From a virus: 23,732 bases of DNA. Shown here piece after piece: positions 1,092 to 23,334 of the stretch. The stretch is from positions 1 through 23,732 of the IMG/VR virus record IMGVR_UViG_3300042868_000075; one strand, 5' to 3'. A program made the translations under genes and the position numbers. A model generated the notes under the pieces. It worked only from the letters and a program-made list of their open reading frames with translations, was not told the origin of the DNA and made no database searches. Each line of letters starts with the position of its first letter. Position 1 is the first letter of the stretch.

Positions 1092-2616
1092 CGGAGCTGG
1101 GCTAGACCTAGACTTCTCTACCAGCCCAGTCGTCTACAACTTCCTGCAAAGCAATGCTTTTGTACGTGGATTGATGGGGCCGGTGGGGTCTGGCAAGAGC
1201 TATGCGTGCGCCGCTGAGATAATGTTGCGTGCCGTTAGGCAAAAGCCTTCCCCTATCGATGGCATCCGATATAGCCGTTGGGTTATTGTACGAAACTCTT
1301 ACCCAGAACTCAAAACGACCACAATCAAGACGTGGCAAGACTTATTCCCAGAGAACACCTTTGGGCCAATGCTCTATACTCCACCGATTACCCACCATAT
1401 CCGCTTGCCTTCCCGGGGCGATGCGGCGGGTATTGACTGCGAAGTTATCTTTCTAGCACTTGACCAACCCAAAGACGTGCGAAAGTTGTTGTCCTTAGAG
1501 CTTACCGGCGCTTGGGTCAACGAGGCCCGAGAGCTGCCAAAAGCAGTTATCGATGGCCTCACCCACCGGGTCGGTCGATACCCGACCAAGCGAGATGGTG
1601 GCGCTAGCTGGCATGGTATTTGGATGGATACAAACCCAATGGACGATGACCATTGGTGGCATAGACTATCCGAGAAAGAAAAGATGACCGGGGCGTACGC
1701 TTGGAAGTTTTATAAGCAACCCGGCGGTGTAGTTGAAGTAGACCCTAAAGACCTACCAGATAACCCAGAAGCCAATGACCATCTGTTTTCTGCCGGACGC
1801 TGGTGGAAGCTAAACACCAAAGCCGAAAACGTACGTAACCTACCGGCTGGTTACTACCAGCAGATGTTGCTTGGTAAGAACCTAGACTGGATTCGGTGCT
1901 ATGCCGAAGGCAAGTACACCTACGTTCAAGAAGGTAGACCAGTCTGGCCAGAGTACGATGACCTACTAATGACGGCTGACTTGGAACACGACCCAACCAT
2001 TCCAATCCAAGTAGGGCTAGACTTTGGTTTGACGCCTGCCGCCGTTATAGGACAACGTACGCAAAGTGGTACGTGGCACGTACTCCACGAGATTGTCACC
2101 TTTGATATGGGGCTTGAGCGATTTGGACAGCAACTATTGGCTGAGCTCAATGCCCGTTATCCAAAAGCCGAAGTGATGGTCTGGGGCGACCCCGCTGGTA
2201 TGGCTAGGGACGCCATATATGAAGTAACCGCCTTTGACTACCTAAGAACATTGGGGCTTCGTGCTCAGCCTACGCCAAGTAACGATTTTAAGGTTAGGCG
2301 AGAAGCGTCTGCCGCCCCGATGCAGCGGCTTGTGGCTGGTAAGCCCGGGCTGCTAGTCAATAGGAGCTGTAAGCTACTTCGCAAATCCTTGGCTGGTGGC
2401 TACCACTTTAAGCGGATAGCCGTTGGCGCAGGGCAAGAAAGATTCAGAGATACGCCAAATAAAAACGAACACTCCCACGTTGGCGACGCCTTTGGCTACC
2501 TATTGTTGGGTGGCGGGGAGCACAAAAGGATGACCAAATCAAACTCTGGGCAGTCACGTACATTTACCGCACAAACCGTAGTCAATACAGAATTCGATGT
2601 CTTTGGACATTCTTAG
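1054..2616 (+). CDS. terL: Terminase large subunit (packaging ATPase-nuclease)
   Basis: This 520-residue motor pumps DNA through the portal and cuts it. Walker A is GPVGSGKS (42-49); the Walker B and catalytic glutamate lie in LTGAWVNEARELP (E157). Motif III is MDTNP (191-195). The C-terminal RNase H-like nuclease has its acidic residues in GLDFGLTPA (D323), VWGDPAG (D379) and SHVGDAFGYLLLG (D478). All are intact, so it should be active. The start is TTG 1054, with GAGGA at 1044-1048. The next in-frame ATG lies at residue 41, just before the Walker A motif, and would remove the N-terminal 40 residues, so TTG is preferred. Its size suits the large-subunit family. It overlaps the small subunit gene, suggesting coupled translation. 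Confidence 0.95.
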   Translation: MSNQKERSQKALNGAGLDLDFSTSPVVYNFLQSNAFVRGLMGPVGSGKSYACAAEIMLRAVRQKPSPIDGIRYSRWVIVRNSYPELKTTTIKTWQDLFPENTFGPMLYTPPITHHIRLPSRGDAAGIDCEVIFLALDQPKDVRKLLSLELTGAWVNEARELPKAVIDGLTHRVGRYPTKRDGGASWHGIWMDTNPMDDDHWWHRLSEKEKMTGAYAWKFYKQPGGVVEVDPKDLPDNPEANDHLFSAGRWWKLNTKAENVRNLPAGYYQQMLLGKNLDWIRCYAEGKYTYVQEGRPVWPEYDDLLMTADLEHDPTIPIQVGLDFGLTPAAVIGQRTQSGTWHVLHEIVTFDMGLERFGQQLLAELNARYPKAEVMVWGDPAGMARDAIYEVTAFDYLRTLGLRAQPTPSNDFKVRREASAAPMQRLVAGKPGLLVNRSCKLLRKSLAGGYHFKRIAVGAGQERFRDTPNKNEHSHVGDAFGYLLLGGGEHKRMTKSNSGQSRTFTAQTVVNTEFDVFGHS

Positions 2617-2656
2617 CCTAAACTCTGAAATCAAGAACAGAAACGGGGTTTTGCTG

Positions 2657-3082
2657 ATGCCGTACTCCCCGCTTCATGCGATGGAGATTGAGGTATCCAA
2701 TCCAGAGATTCTAAGTTCGGGCCAATCCGCCGCCGAGCACATGAACTGCCAAGCAGCACTTGGGCCTGCCGTAACAGCGGTGGTCAATAATTCACCACTA
2801 GCCGTGTTCGGATTTATACACTATTGGAACGGCATGGCTGAGTTTTGGTCTATGTTTGATGACAGGGCTAGGCGCTACCCAAAGACCATGACTTTAGTTG
2901 CAAAACAATTTCTGTATATCGCAGAGGTATCAGAAGGATTGCACCGGCTACAAATCACAGTAAAATCTGATGACACAAGGGCGTATCGGTGGGCTAAAGC
3001 GTTAGGTTTTGAAGAAGAAGGTCTAATGCGGAAGTTTTTGCCGGACGGGTCTGATTCATACATGATGGCGAGGATTAAATGA
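2657..3082 (+). CDS. T7 gp13-like GNAT-fold internal virion protein
   Basis: The protein is 141 residues from ATG 2657, which has GGGG at 2645-2648. An upstream in-frame ATG at 2597 would overlap the terminase by 20 bases and lacks a ribosome site. The length is close to T7 gp13 (about 138 residues), and the layout fits: a central LAVFGFIHYWNGMAEFW segment (48-64), then a helix, then TRAYRWAKALGFEEEGLMRKF (108-128). The last part is the typical GNAT end, where a helix leads to a strand in LGF. In T7 this protein is needed for virion assembly, and acetyl transfer has not been shown. The position between terminase and portal, rather than after gp12, is unusual for T7. A true acetyltransferase remains possible. 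Confidence 0.72.
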   Translation: MPYSPLHAMEIEVSNPEILSSGQSAAEHMNCQAALGPAVTAVVNNSPLAVFGFIHYWNGMAEFWSMFDDRARRYPKTMTLVAKQFLYIAEVSEGLHRLQITVKSDDTRAYRWAKALGFEEEGLMRKFLPDGSDSYMMARIK

Positions 3083-7584: not shown

Positions 7585-8427
7585 ATGTCCGTTTCATTAT
7601 CGAACGCCTTTGTAACGCTCTTTGATGCTGAAGTTAAACAGGCTTATCAGGGCGTAGCCCAATTGGTAGGTGCGGTTCGTCAGCGTCGGGGTGTTGAAGG
7701 CTCAACTGTTAAGTTTCCCAAAGTCGGCAAGGGCGTAGCTACATCACGTGTTCCCCAGTCCGATGTTACCCCTTTGAACGTATCGTTTTCAAACGTAACC
7801 TGCACGCTCCAAGACTGGAACGCCGCAGAGTACAGCGACATTTTCAACCAAGCTAAGGTCAACTTTGACGAGCGTAATGAGCTTGTTCAGGTTGTTGCCA
7901 ACGCTATCGGCCGTCGTCAAGACCAACTTATTCTGGACGCACTTGCAGGTTCGAGCACCAGCCTTATCGTGACCGAAGACGAAGGTGGTACAGATACGGG
8001 TCTGAACGTAGCCAAGCTGCGTGCTGCCAAGAAACTGTTGGATAAAAACAACGTTCCTATGGACAACCGCCATATCATCATCCACGCAAACAGCTTGTCG
8101 AGCATTTTGTCTGAGACTGCCGTAACTTCGGCTGATTTCAACACCGTGCGTGCGCTGGTTTCTGGTGAGCTCAACACGTTCTTAGGCTTTACCTTCCACA
8201 CCATTGGTGATCGTTCGGAAGGCGGATTGCCCGTTGCTTCGTCCGAGCGCAAACTGTGGGCTTTCCACCGTGACGCTATCGGCTACGGCGAGGGCATTGC
8301 ACCACGCACCGAAATCAATTACATCCCTGAGAAGACTAGCTGGCTGGTAAACGCAGTATTCTCGGCAGGTGCAATTGCTATTGATGCCGAAGGTATTGTC
8401 GAAGTCCAAACAACTGATTCAGTCTAA
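7585..8427 (+). CDS. Major capsid protein (HK97-fold type)
   Basis: The 280-residue protein follows a perfect AAGGAG ribosome site and sits after scaffold, the standard place for the coat protein. It begins MSVSLSNAFVTLFDAEVKQAYQG and has the expected beta-rich body with alpha segments: ELVQVVANAIGRRQDQLILDALAG (about 98-121), a helix with LRAAKKLLDKNNVP, then HIIIHANSLSSIL and a long C-terminal strand array near KLWAFHRDAIGYGEG. The pattern resembles the coat proteins of BPP-1-like podoviruses (Bbp17) and the P22-like superfamily. No proteolysis signal was identified. It has its own leader and ribosome site, suggesting high expression. Confidence 0.9.
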   Translation: MSVSLSNAFVTLFDAEVKQAYQGVAQLVGAVRQRRGVEGSTVKFPKVGKGVATSRVPQSDVTPLNVSFSNVTCTLQDWNAAEYSDIFNQAKVNFDERNELVQVVANAIGRRQDQLILDALAGSSTSLIVTEDEGGTDTGLNVAKLRAAKKLLDKNNVPMDNRHIIIHANSLSSILSETAVTSADFNTVRALVSGELNTFLGFTFHTIGDRSEGGLPVASSERKLWAFHRDAIGYGEGIAPRTEINYIPEKTSWLVNAVFSAGAIAIDAEGIVEVQTTDSV

Positions 8428-8438
8428 GGAGAACGACA

Positions 8439-8717
8439 ATGGCATATAACAAAGACGGTTTGAACCTCGTAAACGGTTCTAAGGCTGGCAATTCGCCTCA
8501 GATTTGGACGTATCAATCTGCTGATGCAATTGGCGACATTGACGGCGCAGGCTACTTCAACTCTGCCGCATCAATCCTCAAAGTTGGCGACCTTATGTAT
8601 GTCTACTCTGGCGTTGGCGGATCTGCTGCTTTCGGCTTTGTAGTGGTCAATGCTAACGACGGCACGACTGTTGACGTTACCAGCGTAACAACTGTTGGCA
8701 CTATCGACAGCGACTAA
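8439..8717 (+). CDS. Small head protein, possible decoration or cement protein
   Basis: The 92-residue protein starts after TAAGGAG, eleven bases past the capsid stop. It is beta-rich with few charges: WTYQSADAIGDIDGAGYFNSAASILKVGDLMYVYSG followed by FGFVVVNANDGTTVDVTSV. The aromatic-rich D-x-D-G-A-G-Y-F-N motif is typical of a small head family in this position. In related phages the protein next to the coat often acts as a cement or decoration protein (Bbp16 in BPP-1 is the comparable case by position). The role here is inferred. Confidence 0.7.
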   Translation: MAYNKDGLNLVNGSKAGNSPQIWTYQSADAIGDIDGAGYFNSAASILKVGDLMYVYSGVGGSAAFGFVVVNANDGTTVDVTSVTTVGTIDSD

Positions 8718-9323
8718 TTGCCTGTCGAGTACGCAGTAAAGCATAGGGGTTGTGCCATTATATGTGGCGCAGCCCCTTCTCTTTTTGAAGACCTAGAAGC
8801 CGCACGCAAGTTGCGGCCAGACGCAGCCACCCTAGGCGTTAAGTATGTAGCCGCAATTGTCCCCGAAATTGAGCACGTCTGGACTCAGCACGGCGAGATG
8901 TCCATAAAAATTAAGGCTTCTGTGGACAGGCCAATTAAGATACACGCCAGACCTAAAATCCTACAAACACCAAAGGGAACTTTATGGCATATTCCGTATG
9001 CTAGAGAGTCGTTTGATGCGATTGACTACGTCTGGCCGGGTCTATCCTTTGCCGTTGGCTCTAGTGGCGTGGCCGGTGCTATGTGGGCTAGACACGGCAT
9101 GGGGTTTGAGGAAGTCATAATGGCTGGCATAACCCTGTCTGGCGACGACCAGAAATATGCCCAAGGATACCCAAACAAGTATAGCCAGCACGCAGGCTAC
9201 GCTAGGGCAGACCAGATAGACAACTGGTTTCGGGTGCTCAAGCGCCACCAAGAGGAAGGCTTGACTATGGGAATCTACTCAATGTCCGGAAGAACCAAAG
9301 ATTTGCTAGGAGCCCCAGAATGA
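8718..9323 (+). CDS. Phage MptE/DUF115-like protein, Rossmann-type
   Basis: The 201-residue protein starts at TTG immediately after the preceding TAA, with no clear ribosome site, so translation is probably coupled. CAIICGAAPSLFEDLEAAR (12-30) forms a beta-loop-helix like a nucleotide-binding start. GSSGVAGAMWARHGMGFEEVIMAGITL (114-140) is a second glycine turn with a helix and strand, and MSGRTKDLLG (189-198) is the common C-terminal motif. I recognise a phage family with this plan, loosely like MptE or DUF115 proteins, which handle phosphate or sugar groups. The substrate is unknown. It overlaps the glycosyltransferase-like gene next to it, suggesting a joint task, perhaps virion glycan modification. 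Confidence 0.6.
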   Translation: MPVEYAVKHRGCAIICGAAPSLFEDLEAARKLRPDAATLGVKYVAAIVPEIEHVWTQHGEMSIKIKASVDRPIKIHARPKILQTPKGTLWHIPYARESFDAIDYVWPGLSFAVGSSGVAGAMWARHGMGFEEVIMAGITLSGDDQKYAQGYPNKYSQHAGYARADQIDNWFRVLKRHQEEGLTMGIYSMSGRTKDLLGAPE

Positions 9324-9961
9324 TTACGGTTGCTTGCGTGCTAAAGTCTGGCGGCAGATACAAGCCAGATGACGTGGCCAAGCTGAGTCGCAATGTAGCT
9401 CAAAAACTGAGCCTGCCCCATAACTTTGTATGCCTTTCTGACATCCCAGTACCGTGCGAACGTATTGCTTTGCAACATGACTGGTCTGGGTGGTGGTCAA
9501 AGATTGAGCTATTTAGGCCAGATGTACTACCGCCCAATACCATCTACCTTGACCTTGATACCGTTGTACTGGATGACTTTTCGGACATTGCCGAGTGCGG
9601 ATACGACTTTGCCATGATGCAAAACCTAAAGCGTCCGCACATGGTTTCGTCTGCCCTTATGTGGTTCTATCATAAAGCCCCTGTTGAAGTCTATAAAAGA
9701 TTTGTGGTAAACCCAGATTATTGGGTAAAATATCACCAAGATAACAAGGACGGCCCATATTTGGGCGATCAGGCGTTTATCTGGGATGCGTTAGATAGAA
9801 ACGTGCCGGTATTAGAAACCAAGAAATACGGAGTCTATTCATACCGCCTACACGTAAAAGACCGAGGCAAACCGCCTGACGGGTGTAGGATTGTTGATTT
9901 TGGTGGGCAATACAAACCAAACAACGTTGACGCCGAGTGGCTACGTGCCATTCGAGGATAG
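9320..9961 (+). CDS. Glycosyltransferase-like protein with DxD motif
   Basis: The 213-residue protein starts on the previous stop (ATGA). WWSKIELFRPDVLPPNTIYLDLDTVVLDDF spans about 58-87 in short pieces; D78 and D80 form the DxD motif that binds metal and the sugar nucleotide in GT-A fold enzymes such as GT8. GDQAFIW (149-155) is the usual second motif with an acidic residue before the acceptor site. The fold agrees with nucleotide-diphospho-sugar transferases, seen in many phages. Donor and acceptor are unknown. With the upstream partner it may decorate capsid or tail proteins. I am confident of the class and not of the substrate. Confidence 0.78.
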   Translation: MITVACVLKSGGRYKPDDVAKLSRNVAQKLSLPHNFVCLSDIPVPCERIALQHDWSGWWSKIELFRPDVLPPNTIYLDLDTVVLDDFSDIAECGYDFAMMQNLKRPHMVSSALMWFYHKAPVEVYKRFVVNPDYWVKYHQDNKDGPYLGDQAFIWDALDRNVPVLETKKYGVYSYRLHVKDRGKPPDGCRIVDFGGQYKPNNVDAEWLRAIRG

Positions 9962-9969
9962 GATAGATT

Positions 9970-10584
9970 ATGGCTGCCGGTGATTCTGCTCTTTCAATAT
10001 GTTCTGACGCCTTGCAAATGTTAGGCGCCAAGCCAATCTCGTCCTTCACAGAAGGAACCGATGAGGCAAATGTTGCCGATTCCCTGTACCAAGACATCAA
10101 AAAGCAAGCTCTCTTGGTTTACCCTTGGTCTTTTGTATACAAAAAGATTGCGTTAGCGCAATTGCTGACTGGGCCAACAACTGAGTATCGCTATGCCTAT
10201 CAACTACCCGGCGACCGTATTGGCCCACCACGCTCCGTAACCACTAGCGCAACACCAGGTTCCGGAACTATCCGTAACTACCGGATATTTGGCGACCAGC
10301 TTTTAACTAACGAAACAACGATATACATAGACTATCCCTATGACGTACAAGAGTACGAGATGCCCGTGTACTTTATTCAGCTTATGAAGTACATGATGGC
10401 TTGGCATCTGTCTTTGCCCATTACAGACCAGATGGACAAGACGCAATACTGGCAAGGCGTGGCTATTGGTGCGCCATCAGAAAATGGTCGTGGTGGATAT
10501 ATGCGTACCGCCACCACTATTGATGGCCAAGGTCAGCCAATTTCTGTTATTGAAGATTACAGCTTAATTGACGTGAGAAACTGA
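9970..10584 (+). CDS. Tail tubular protein A (T7 gp11-like)
   Basis: The 204-residue protein has the length of T7 gp11 (196). It forms the gatekeeper ring between portal and tail nozzle. ALSICSDALQMLGAKPISSF (7-26) and the motif YPWSFVYKKIALAQL (about 50-64) are family hallmarks. EYRYAYQLPGDRIGP and YPYDVQEYEMPVYFIQLMKYMMAWHLSLP follow in the usual order. AGGAT just before the ATG acts as the ribosome site. Its stop overlaps the start of gp12, as expected for partners in one ring assembly. Confidence 0.92.
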   Translation: MAAGDSALSICSDALQMLGAKPISSFTEGTDEANVADSLYQDIKKQALLVYPWSFVYKKIALAQLLTGPTTEYRYAYQLPGDRIGPPRSVTTSATPGSGTIRNYRIFGDQLLTNETTIYIDYPYDVQEYEMPVYFIQLMKYMMAWHLSLPITDQMDKTQYWQGVAIGAPSENGRGGYMRTATTIDGQGQPISVIEDYSLIDVRN

Positions 10585-18628: not shown

Positions 18629-20302
18629 ATGTCTGTCCCAATTTCAAATGTCACCCGCCGGGTAGTGCTCGCCGCCTCTGGCACGGGGCCATATTCGTTT
18701 ACTTTTGAAATCCTTGCCGCTACCGACATCTCGGTATACAGGGACGATACCCTTCTTACCCTGACTACTGACTATACCGTAACGATTAACACCAACGGTA
18801 CTGGTTATGTGACCCTGACGGCTACCCCAACAGGCGCTACTCAGATTGCTATTGTTGGCGACCGGGCAATCCAGCGTACCTCAGACTTTACTACTGGTGG
18901 CGACTTGTTTGCTACAACCCTAAACGACGAGCTGGATAGCATGACCATCTTTGCCCAGCAAAATGCCGAGGGTGTAGACCGTGCTCTGAAGGCTCCCCAG
19001 ACTGACCCGACCAACATTAGCATGACCATGCCACGGGCCTCTGTACGGGCTGGCAAGGTGCTCTCTTTTGATTCCAACGGCAACCCTGCGGCGGTTGACT
19101 ACATTGGTGAGAACCGTGGGAACTGGGCGGCTGGCATAGCGTACAACCAGCGTGACATTGTTAAAGACACGACCAACGACAACATCTATCAGGTTTTAAC
19201 GCCACATACTTCTACCGGTTCCCTGCCGATTTCAACCAATACAGACAGCGCCAAGTGGGCCTTGCTGGTCAATGCCGCAGCCGCCAACGCATCTGCCGTA
19301 GCTGCTGCTGCTAGCGCATCTGCCGCCTCAACGTCAGCGTCCAACGCCTCGACCTCCGCAAGCAATGCCAGCACATCTGCCAGCAATGCAGCTACCTCGG
19401 CAAGTAACGCATCTACCAGCGCAAGCAATGCGGCAAGTTCTGCCTCAACAGCAAGCACGGCAGCAAGCAATGCTCAGACCGCCGAGACAAATGCTGAGAC
19501 AGCCGAGACAAACGCTGAGACAGCGCAGGCCGCAGCAGAAGCGGCACAAGCAGCCGCCGAAGCTGCCGAGGCTGCATCTATAAACTTGGCCACTAACTTT
19601 ACCGCCACGGCTACCACGCTGTCTCCCGGCGCTAGCGCAACAGCATCTTACAACTCTGGAACTTATACCTTAACCCTCGGTATTCCAACTGGTGCGACAG
19701 GTTCAACCGGAGCGACAGGAGCAACCGGCCCGGTAGGCATGAACTGGCTTGGAGCCTACAGCGCCGGGACGTCTTATGTTGTTGACGACGCAGTCAGCTA
19801 CAACGGCTCAAGCTATATCTGTAAGCTCGCCTCAACCGGCAACGTGCCAACGAACACAACCTACTGGGATGTGCTTGCAGAGAAGGGCGCATCTGGCTCT
19901 GGTGCTGGCGACGTGGTTGGCCCGGCATCTGCGGTAAATGACCGCCTAGCTGCGTTTGACGGAACTACCGGAAAGCTGATTAAGGATAGCGGATACACCC
20001 AAGCGAGCTTTGCAAAGTACGCTGACTCAACGGCAAACTTTACCGGAACCCTGCAAAACGGCGGGCATACGGTTCTGACCAGCGCATCGGATTATCTTGA
20101 TTCAACGGACATTGGTTCAACTGTACAAGCATACGACAGCAACCTGACATCCTTTGTTAGTACATTTACTTTGCCAACAACGGATGGTACGGCAGACCAA
20201 GTATTAAAAACTAATGGTTCAGGCACGCTTTCTTTTGCAACGCCTAGTGGTGGTATTACAACTGGTAAGGCCATCGCAATGGCCATTGTTTTCGGTGGCT
20301 AA
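18629..20302 (+). CDS. Tail fibre protein with T7 gp17-like N-terminus
   Basis: This 557-residue protein mediates host recognition. Residues 1-150 match the T7 gp17 tail-attachment domain (VVLAASGTGPYSFTFEIL, DRAIQRTSDFTTGGDLFATTLNDELD, ALKAP). A first CBM5/12-like module, GNWAAGIAYNQRDIVKD, starts near 163, and a second (WLGAYSAGTSYVVDDAVSYN) near 372 ends in TTYWDVLAEKG. Between them are twelve heptads (234-317) and a collagen-like GATGSTGATGATGPVG run (about 353-369). The C-terminal GKAIAMAIVFGG is a terminal motif I know from aquatic-phage fibres. The ribosome site is AGGAAGGAA. Receptor type is unknown; the two modules suggest glycan binding. Confidence 0.88.
   Translation: MSVPISNVTRRVVLAASGTGPYSFTFEILAATDISVYRDDTLLTLTTDYTVTINTNGTGYVTLTATPTGATQIAIVGDRAIQRTSDFTTGGDLFATTLNDELDSMTIFAQQNAEGVDRALKAPQTDPTNISMTMPRASVRAGKVLSFDSNGNPAAVDYIGENRGNWAAGIAYNQRDIVKDTTNDNIYQVLTPHTSTGSLPISTNTDSAKWALLVNAAAANASAVAAAASASAASTSASNASTSASNASTSASNAATSASNASTSASNAASSASTASTAASNAQTAETNAETAETNAETAQAAAEAAQAAAEAAEAASINLATNFTATATTLSPGASATASYNSGTYTLTLGIPTGATGSTGATGATGPVGMNWLGAYSAGTSYVVDDAVSYNGSSYICKLASTGNVPTNTTYWDVLAEKGASGSGAGDVVGPASAVNDRLAAFDGTTGKLIKDSGYTQASFAKYADSTANFTGTLQNGGHTVLTSASDYLDSTDIGSTVQAYDSNLTSFVSTFTLPTTDGTADQVLKTNGSGTLSFATPSGGITTGKAIAMAIVFGG
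19328..19579 (+). repeat. Heptad repeats in the tail fibre (twelve units of 21 bp)
   Basis: Twelve consecutive seven-residue units encode residues 234-317. The first five are nearly identical (STSASNA type), then they drift to AETNAETA-like and EAAQAAA-like units. Small residues at core positions suit a compact trimeric coiled coil that acts as a rigid shaft. The number of units is what is counted directly; a trimer is inferred from fibre families. Confidence 0.75.
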
Positions 20303-22438: not shown

Positions 22439-22717
22439 ATGGAAACCAAAATCTATCGGTTGTATGGAATTGACACCGCAATGCACCTGCTAAGACCGGG
22501 TGCAAAGTGGGAAATCTCAAACACTTATTTCTCCCGTTGGGAAGACCCAAGACCCTGCCCTACTTGGCAAGAGGTTCAGGACACAATGGAAAAGATTAAG
22601 GCGTTTGAGGACTCCATCAACACGATTTGGTTGCCAGAGCAGATTGAGCAATTCACCGGTCAGATGGAAATACAAAAGCAGGTTGATGCAATCATTGCAG
22701 AACAGAAGGCCGCATGA
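22439..22717 (+). CDS. Conserved small aquatic-phage protein
   Basis: The 92-residue protein follows a GAGGA ribosome site. Its pattern MHLLRPGAKWEISNTYFSRWEDPRPCPTW is repeated in many marine phage genomes near fibre genes, and is followed by a helical C-terminus, VQDTMEKIKAFEDSINTIWLPEQIEQF. I know no established function. It may act in fibre or adhesin assembly, given the position. The stop overlaps the start of the oxygenase-like gene (ATGA). Confidence 0.7.
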   Translation: METKIYRLYGIDTAMHLLRPGAKWEISNTYFSRWEDPRPCPTWQEVQDTMEKIKAFEDSINTIWLPEQIEQFTGQMEIQKQVDAIIAEQKAA

Positions 22718-23334
22718 TTCACAACCTCTTTCCCACTCCTGTTGGCATCTACAAGTTAGACCGTGACCTCTCGGCTAAAGAACTGTCGTTTCTAAAAAAG
22801 CAAGAGACACGGTCGAATCAGGGCAACACGACCAGTATTGACAACACGATTCTGAAAGCCAAGGAATTGACCCAGTTGCGGGACTTCATTGAAACCAGCG
22901 TGTCGGAATACTTCACCACGGTTTATAGCCCAAAGCACAAGGTCAATCTCAAGATTACGCAGTCGTGGACGAACTACACCGACAAGGGTCAGTATCACCA
23001 CAAGCACGAGCATCCAAATTCGTTTGTGTCTGGCGTGTTCTATGTTCAGGCAGACAAGGCAAAAGATAGGATTTACTTCTACCGAAACGGATACCAACAA
23101 ATTAAGTTTCCACCGTCTGATTGGAATGTGTGGAACTCAGAGTCGTGGTGGTTTGATGTTGGTTCTTGCGACTTGGTGCTTTTCCCGTCAAGCCTGACAC
23201 ACATGGTTCCAACAGTAGAATCAGAGCAGACAAGAATTAGCCTTTCGTTTAACACCTTCCCTGTCGGCAATGTTGGGGAAGAAATGGATTTAACAGGACT
23301 TCAACTAGGAGAATTAGATGGCGCATTTCGCTAA
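22714..23334 (+). CDS. 2-oxoglutarate/Fe(II) oxygenase-like protein
   Basis: This 206-residue protein matches the small phage family of double-stranded beta-helix oxygenases (2OG-FeII_Oxy_5 type). Metal-binding candidates are in GQYHHKHEHPNSFVSGVFYV (92-111: H96, H98 and E99 nearby) and H163 in LVLFPSSLTHMV (154-165). R174 in the following TRISLSFN (173-180) is the expected 2-oxoglutarate anchor. It begins INHLFPTP-like (MIHNLFPTPVG), common to this group. All key residues appear present, so it may be active. Substrate is unknown: a protein residue, e.g. a prolyl site, is the usual suggestion. The 3' end overlaps the next gene by 17 bases. Confidence 0.8.
   Translation: MIHNLFPTPVGIYKLDRDLSAKELSFLKKQETRSNQGNTTSIDNTILKAKELTQLRDFIETSVSEYFTTVYSPKHKVNLKITQSWTNYTDKGQYHHKHEHPNSFVSGVFYVQADKAKDRIYFYRNGYQQIKFPPSDWNVWNSESWWFDVGSCDLVLFPSSLTHMVPTVESEQTRISLSFNTFPVGNVGEEMDLTGLQLGELDGAFR

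Follow-up and report, generated by a model that had tools for sequence, protein, structure and literature searches.

Between the head and tail genes of an uncultured T7-like phage, which is known from an IMG/VR virus record and belongs to the MEP301-related podophage lineage, lie two genes, here termed A and B, with transferase-like products. The locus raises the question of what such enzymes would modify from a position among structural genes and how their expression is set there.

Gene Order around A and B

The window, which is the whole 23,732-nucleotide stretch of DNA analysed, carries, in order, genes for terminase, portal, scaffold, capsid, a 92-residue protein, A, B, tail tubular proteins A and B, internal virion proteins, and a tail fibre. 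A sequence-only reading of this DNA had described two open reading frames set between head and tail genes. Both frames, A from a TTG and B from an ATG, stand at the coordinates listed in Table 1, and family matches confirm that they are flanked by head genes (portal, scaffold, capsid) and tail genes. Both are under purifying selection, with pairwise dN/dS values of 0.07–0.11 for A and 0.07–0.18 for B.

Table 1. Coordinates of genes and sequence features at the A/B locus (positions in the window)
Feature	Position	Strand	Match or basis
Major capsid protein gene (upstream flank)	7585..8427	+	PF19821 7.5e-75; phrog_3437
92-aa gene; TAA stop abuts TTG of A	8439..8717	+	phrog_18004 5e-16; kept 5' of A in relatives
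Gene A: Maf/MptE/sialyltransferase-superfamily protein (predicted fold), 201 aa, TTG start, no Shine-Dalgarno	8718..9323	+	
Conserved 14-bp RNA hairpin in codons 10–20 of A	8745..8777	+	
U-rich tract TCTCTTTTTG 3' of hairpin; terminator-like in the window's clade only	8778..8787	+	
AGGAG, ribosome-binding site of B, inside A	9308..9312	+	sequence
ATGA overlap of B start and A stop	9320..9323	+	sequence
Gene B: putative GT8-like GT-A glycosyltransferase, 213 aa, ATG start, phrog_1962 (P1 PmgQ family)	9320..9961	+	
DLD (DxD) motif of B, D78–D80, invariant	9551..9559	+	
Tail tubular protein A-like gene (downstream flank)	9970..10584	+	phrog_394 2.4e-30

Predicted Folds of A and B

The model of A (pLDDT 90.1, from a 25-sequence alignment) adopts a Rossmann-like fold with an N-terminal G-x-x-P-S loop, and G17 and P20 are invariant in that alignment. 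Among PDB structures, its fold is matched best by the Maf flagellin glycosyltransferase 5mu5 (E = 8.9e-4), the M. jannaschii MptE/HPPK structure 8sd5 (2.4e-3), and human ST8SiaIII, 5bo7 (3.3e-3). By its predicted structure, A is a member of the Maf/MptE/sialyltransferase fold superfamily. The closest of these structures, Maf, differs in being a 632-residue, multidomain bacterial protein with 14% identity to A. The earlier description of A as MptE/DUF115-like is backed at the level of the superfamily by the fold match, but not by its own sequence at the level of the Pfam family: PF01973 (MptE-like/DUF115) matches A of the window with 13.4 bits (E = 0.065), under the gathering score of 34.6 bits, and 15 of the 25 A homologues match it weakly (best 1.3e-4). 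In a viral structure library, the nearest structural relatives of A are uncharacterised phage proteins. No match to A was found in annotated phages by tblastn, a PDB sequence search with A gave nothing meaningful, NCBIfam contained no match for A or B, and the literature on MptE-like phage enzymes yielded nothing relevant. Because bacterial genomes yielded no relative of A in a pattern scan, the protein appears to be phage-restricted at the sensitivity of that scan.

The model of B (pLDDT 92.6) has the fold of glycogenin, Skp1 galactosyltransferase, and GT8. The phrog_1962 profile, which represents the family of P1 PmgQ, matches B over its full length (residues 3–211 of 213, 8.2e-36), and B is ~30% identical to PmgQ itself. 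The identification of B as a DxD type of glycosyltransferase agrees with a DLD motif whose D78 and D80 are invariant in 50 sequences, with a conserved GD, and with the GT8-like GT-A fold of the model. The assignment to GT8 is less complete, since B has the GT-A fold and the DxD motif but no match to PF01501 (GT8), which 4 of 20 relatives match weakly (best 0.0058). In addition, the C-terminal metal-binding His of GT8 (FHG) is replaced by Gly195 in the window's clade. Residue 195 (9902–9904) is His in 35 of the 50 aligned rows, Gly also in several capsid-linked relatives, and Ser in L047 and L048. On its model, B is a putative GT8-like GT-A enzyme in which Gly stands in place of the third metal ligand. 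For both proteins, the predicted folds support transferase enzymes of the glycan type.

An Exchangeable Slot Downstream of A

The region between A and the tail tubular A gene was compared in 74 IMG/VR contigs in which A and this downstream slot are complete; the contigs are partly redundant, so that the counts below are not independent events. A is constant and the slot is variable. It holds B in 26 of the 74 contigs, a class I methyltransferase in 27, and a methyltransferase-like ORF, judged from motifs, in 4 more. B is accompanied by a 145-residue protein with a GCG motif in 5 contigs and by a GT2, with or without a second A, in 3; a single contig carries a 4-kb cassette of a GT1-type transferase, a GDP-mannose-dehydratase-like epimerase, B, and a second A; and the slot is empty in 8. 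Diverged second copies of A are found at the far end of the slot in two loci (L047:6633–7220 and L048:7319–7900). Among these relatives, which were fetched with A as the query, the 92-aa gene precedes A wherever the contig extends that far. A and B thus do not behave as the conserved unit that the two coupled genes had suggested: A stays, and B is swapped for a methyltransferase, extra enzymes, or nothing.

Sequence divergence in the cassette also greatly exceeds that of the neighbouring capsid gene. At 39 loci with a capsid at least 88% and A less than 90% identical to the window, median identity is 91% for the capsid, 79% for tail tubular A, and 65% for A, with B at 36–70%. Judged by its capsid protein (77% identical), Methylophilales phage MEP301 is the nearest relative in culture, and it shares the head-tail gene order. 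Unlike the window, it has neither A nor B: its tail tubular A gene is preceded by just a 66-bp gap, in which a terminator-like hairpin lies (L058, ~10139–10175). Since A and B are missing from MEP301 despite this capsid identity, the cassette is accessory. The proposal that the pair is dispensable for assembly is borne out by MEP301 and by the non-essentiality of P1 pmgQ and the analogous pmgO and pmgP (PMC10695390).

Relatives of B in Other Genomes

Relatives of B adjoin a different capsid family (phrog_1328) in L045, L046, L053, and L109, where the neighbourhood also contains a TPR protein with a weak GT9 match. They lie directly before or near the structural phrog_2941 in L046, L050, and L055, and within sugar-nucleotide clusters in L054, L056, and L111. 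In P1, phiNP, and JK004, B relatives are next to or near MptE/sialyltransferase-like proteins; the proximity of an MptE-like protein to a phrog_1962 glycosyltransferase recurs in these three phages.

The pmgO-pmgP-ppp-pmgQ genes of P1 (P7 hdmD) are reminiscent of A and B in that PmgQ is a homologue of B and PmgO and PmgP are, like A, MptE/sialyltransferase-like proteins. They differ in that the pmg genes are not located between capsid and tail genes and a phosphatase gene lies among them. Direct homology of A with PmgO and PmgP was considered and rejected, as the hhalign alignments were not significant. In Citrobacter phage phiNP (phiNP_031/phiNP_030), a PmgP-family protein overlaps a B homologue beside the terminase genes; the context there is that of a lambda-type siphophage, and the first protein belongs to phrog_2111 rather than to the family of A. 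Mycobacteriophage Che8 gp110 and Corndog gp38 are phage glycosyltransferases thought or shown to modify virion proteins (cited in PMC12363180). This likeness is one of description: those phages have actinobacterial hosts and other enzymes, and their glycan has been shown. In the jumbo phages RAS14 and XacN1 (L113:2838–4154 and L116:2838–4154), a single protein joins a TylF-type methyltransferase to a B-like glycosyltransferase domain. At least two glycoproteins occur in XacN1 virions, and the authors attributed these to other genes (PMC5852040).

Translation Start of A and Coupling to B

The TTG start of A without a ribosome site, as first read, is confirmed. The TTG immediately follows the TAA of the 92-aa gene, with which it is in frame, and it is the sole usable start of A: residue conservation sets in at position 5, and strand 1 is preceded by no further ATG, GTG, or TTG. 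By a simple motif rule, Shine-Dalgarno sequences occur at A starts in 2 of 45 distinct homologues versus 26 of 26 capsid starts and 44 of 44 starts of the 92-aa gene. The TTG directly after the stop is retained in 47 contigs. Other clades start A at an ATG 14–33 nt 3' of the upstream stop, and single contigs use a GTG or an overlapping TTG. In L031 and L032, the TTG is kept two bases further on, in a frame different from that of the upstream gene. Retention of the TTG despite this change of frame argues for reinitiation and against stop-codon readthrough into A, which the relatives rule out. As judged from the sequence, the arrangement fits reinitiation after the 92-aa gene. The coupling of A to B is likewise upheld, with an ATGA overlap of the B start and the A stop and an AGGAG 7 nt 5' of B.

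Possible Role of the Cassette

The best-supported reading, and the one toward which we lean, is that A and B are an accessory glycan-modification cassette acting on the virion. In the pathway we infer, both proteins would be made late, at the same time as the structural proteins; translation of A would reinitiate behind the 92-aa gene, and that of B would be coupled to A. A would most likely transfer an activated sugar, for which a nonulosonic acid is plausible, and B would most likely attach a hexose taken from a nucleotide sugar. A virion protein is the most likely acceptor. Where relatives have a methyltransferase or additional enzymes in place of or alongside B, the final glycan would be altered. 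Counted for this reading are the folds of A and B, the invariant DLD, and the dispensability seen in MEP301; the methyltransferase, GT2, GT1-type transferase, epimerase, and second A in the slots of relatives; the divergence of A and B relative to the capsid; and the MptE-like proteins near B relatives in P1, phiNP, and JK004. Also counted are the placement of B relatives beside an unrelated capsid family, before structural genes, and in sugar-nucleotide clusters, and the virion glycoproteins of XacN1, which has a B-like domain (PMC5852040). Counted against it are the PF01973 match of A under the cut-off, the non-significant hhalign result for PmgO and PmgP, the Gly of B at the metal-binding His of GT8, the non-essentiality of the P1 homologues, which does not reveal a target, and the attribution of the XacN1 glycoproteins to other genes.

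The virion is favoured as the target by gene position, next to capsid genes in head modules of two unrelated kinds, and late phage-encoded glycosylation of the virion is more likely than modification of the host surface. A and B acting on LPS or capsule during infection, and so keeping out superinfecting phages or stopping progeny from re-adsorbing to debris, is an unlikely alternative with some points in its favour. Enzymes that glycosylate LPS and flagellin often have Maf/GT42-like or GT8-like folds, and heptose- and nucleotide-sugar genes adjoin B relatives. Phage glycosyltransferases are also known in serotype conversion (cited in PMC12619734). However, the cassette is placed among late structural genes in both head modules, a position past the point at which superinfection exclusion would most benefit a lytic phage, and no membrane-anchoring protein of the GtrA/GtrB type was seen in the slot. 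That A is instead an MptE-type pyrophosphokinase or other small-molecule enzyme, unrelated to sugar transfer by B, is suggested by the second-best fold match, 8sd5, but is improbable given a window and slot with no folate or pterin gene and slot partners that are glycosyltransferases, methyltransferases, and an epimerase.

Phage-encoded virion glycosylation has so far been shown in few phages. If the cassette does act on the virion, aquatic podophages would possess a slot in which glycosyltransferase and methyltransferase genes are swapped behind capsids that are ~90% identical, virion glycans would be a diversifying trait, and such diversification would extend beyond the actinobacterial cases.

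A Hairpin Embedded in A

The hairpin in the first codons of A, a feature that the sequence-only reading had not mentioned and the least expected one of the locus, was flagged by a terminator scan and, at −26 kcal/mol, is the strongest long hairpin in the window, with a fold z-score of −3.56 for the region. Four stems with at least 12 uninterrupted pairs occur in the window, versus 0.5 expected from local shuffling. Rfam contains no family matching the hairpin. Against synonymous shuffles, in which protein and codon content are fixed, each of the 45 distinct homologues folds better than ~95–100% of its shuffles (z −1.9 to −4.9), the tests not being independent because the homologues are related. 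Stem pairs number 584, versus 440 ± 8 expected. Two-sided changes are found in 26 cells versus 6.3 in the shuffles (0/500; 33 sequences), and this covariation signal is lost when the stem partner is slid out of register. In one clade, C12/A18 is changed to T12/S18 (TGT/GCA to ACT/AGT) with all three pairs kept; in L043–L048, where the stem is in a shifted register, the region still exceeds its own shuffles in stability. Among 119 coding windows of four genes, the hairpin is an outlier (mean z −3.2; next non-overlapping window −1.8), a scan that rules out a general tendency to structure as its cause. The hairpin is missing from the second copies of A further along the slot (z 0.05 and 1.1, two cases), which ties it to position rather than to the protein. 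In L088–L095, terminator-like hairpins are also present in the gap between the 92-aa gene and A, for example AAAGAGGGGGTTCGCCCCCTCTTTTTCT in L088.

The hairpin probably has a cis-acting RNA role, with reinitiation control, processing, and attenuation as candidate functions. A fuller proposal, which we advance tentatively as having nearly even prospects, is that the first codons of A double as a cis-acting hairpin whose stem is kept by the co-change of residues 12 and 18, and which at the capsid-to-tail boundary would set the expression of both the coupled transferase gene, which lacks a Shine-Dalgarno sequence, and the tail genes that follow. At these codons, constraint on the protein can be told apart from constraint on the RNA, and the hairpin would bear on how expression of head versus tail genes is balanced.

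An intrinsic terminator or attenuator between head and tail genes is a possible but doubtful alternative. The hairpin occupies what is presumably the position of the T7 late terminator, its 14-bp stem is followed by CUUCUCUUUUUG in the window's clade, and terminator-like hairpins precede A in L088–L095 and tail tubular A in MEP301. The U-tract, however, is good in the window's clade but is not conserved elsewhere, where it is mostly not above synonymous expectation. Because both hairpins are present in L088–L095, a simple relocation of the terminator does not explain the embedded one. It is very improbable that the hairpin simply reflects protein sequence and codon use, despite high protein conservation at the site and the invariant G17 and P20 in the 3' arm: the excess of pairs over synonymous shuffles, seen as better folding in every distinct homologue, and the two-sided changes oppose it, and the shuffles together with the hairpin-less second copies rule out protein sequence alone as the cause.

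Other Genes of the Window

Downstream of the locus, a tail-fibre-like protein with a CBM_5_12 carbohydrate-binding module is encoded at 18629–20302, and a 2OG-Fe(II) oxygenase gene (phrog_81, PF13759) lies near the window end at 22714–23334. An acetyltransferase-like protein (phrog_4177, weak acyltransferase matches) is encoded 3' of the large terminase at 2597–3082, and MEP301 has an annotated acetyltransferase at the equivalent place.
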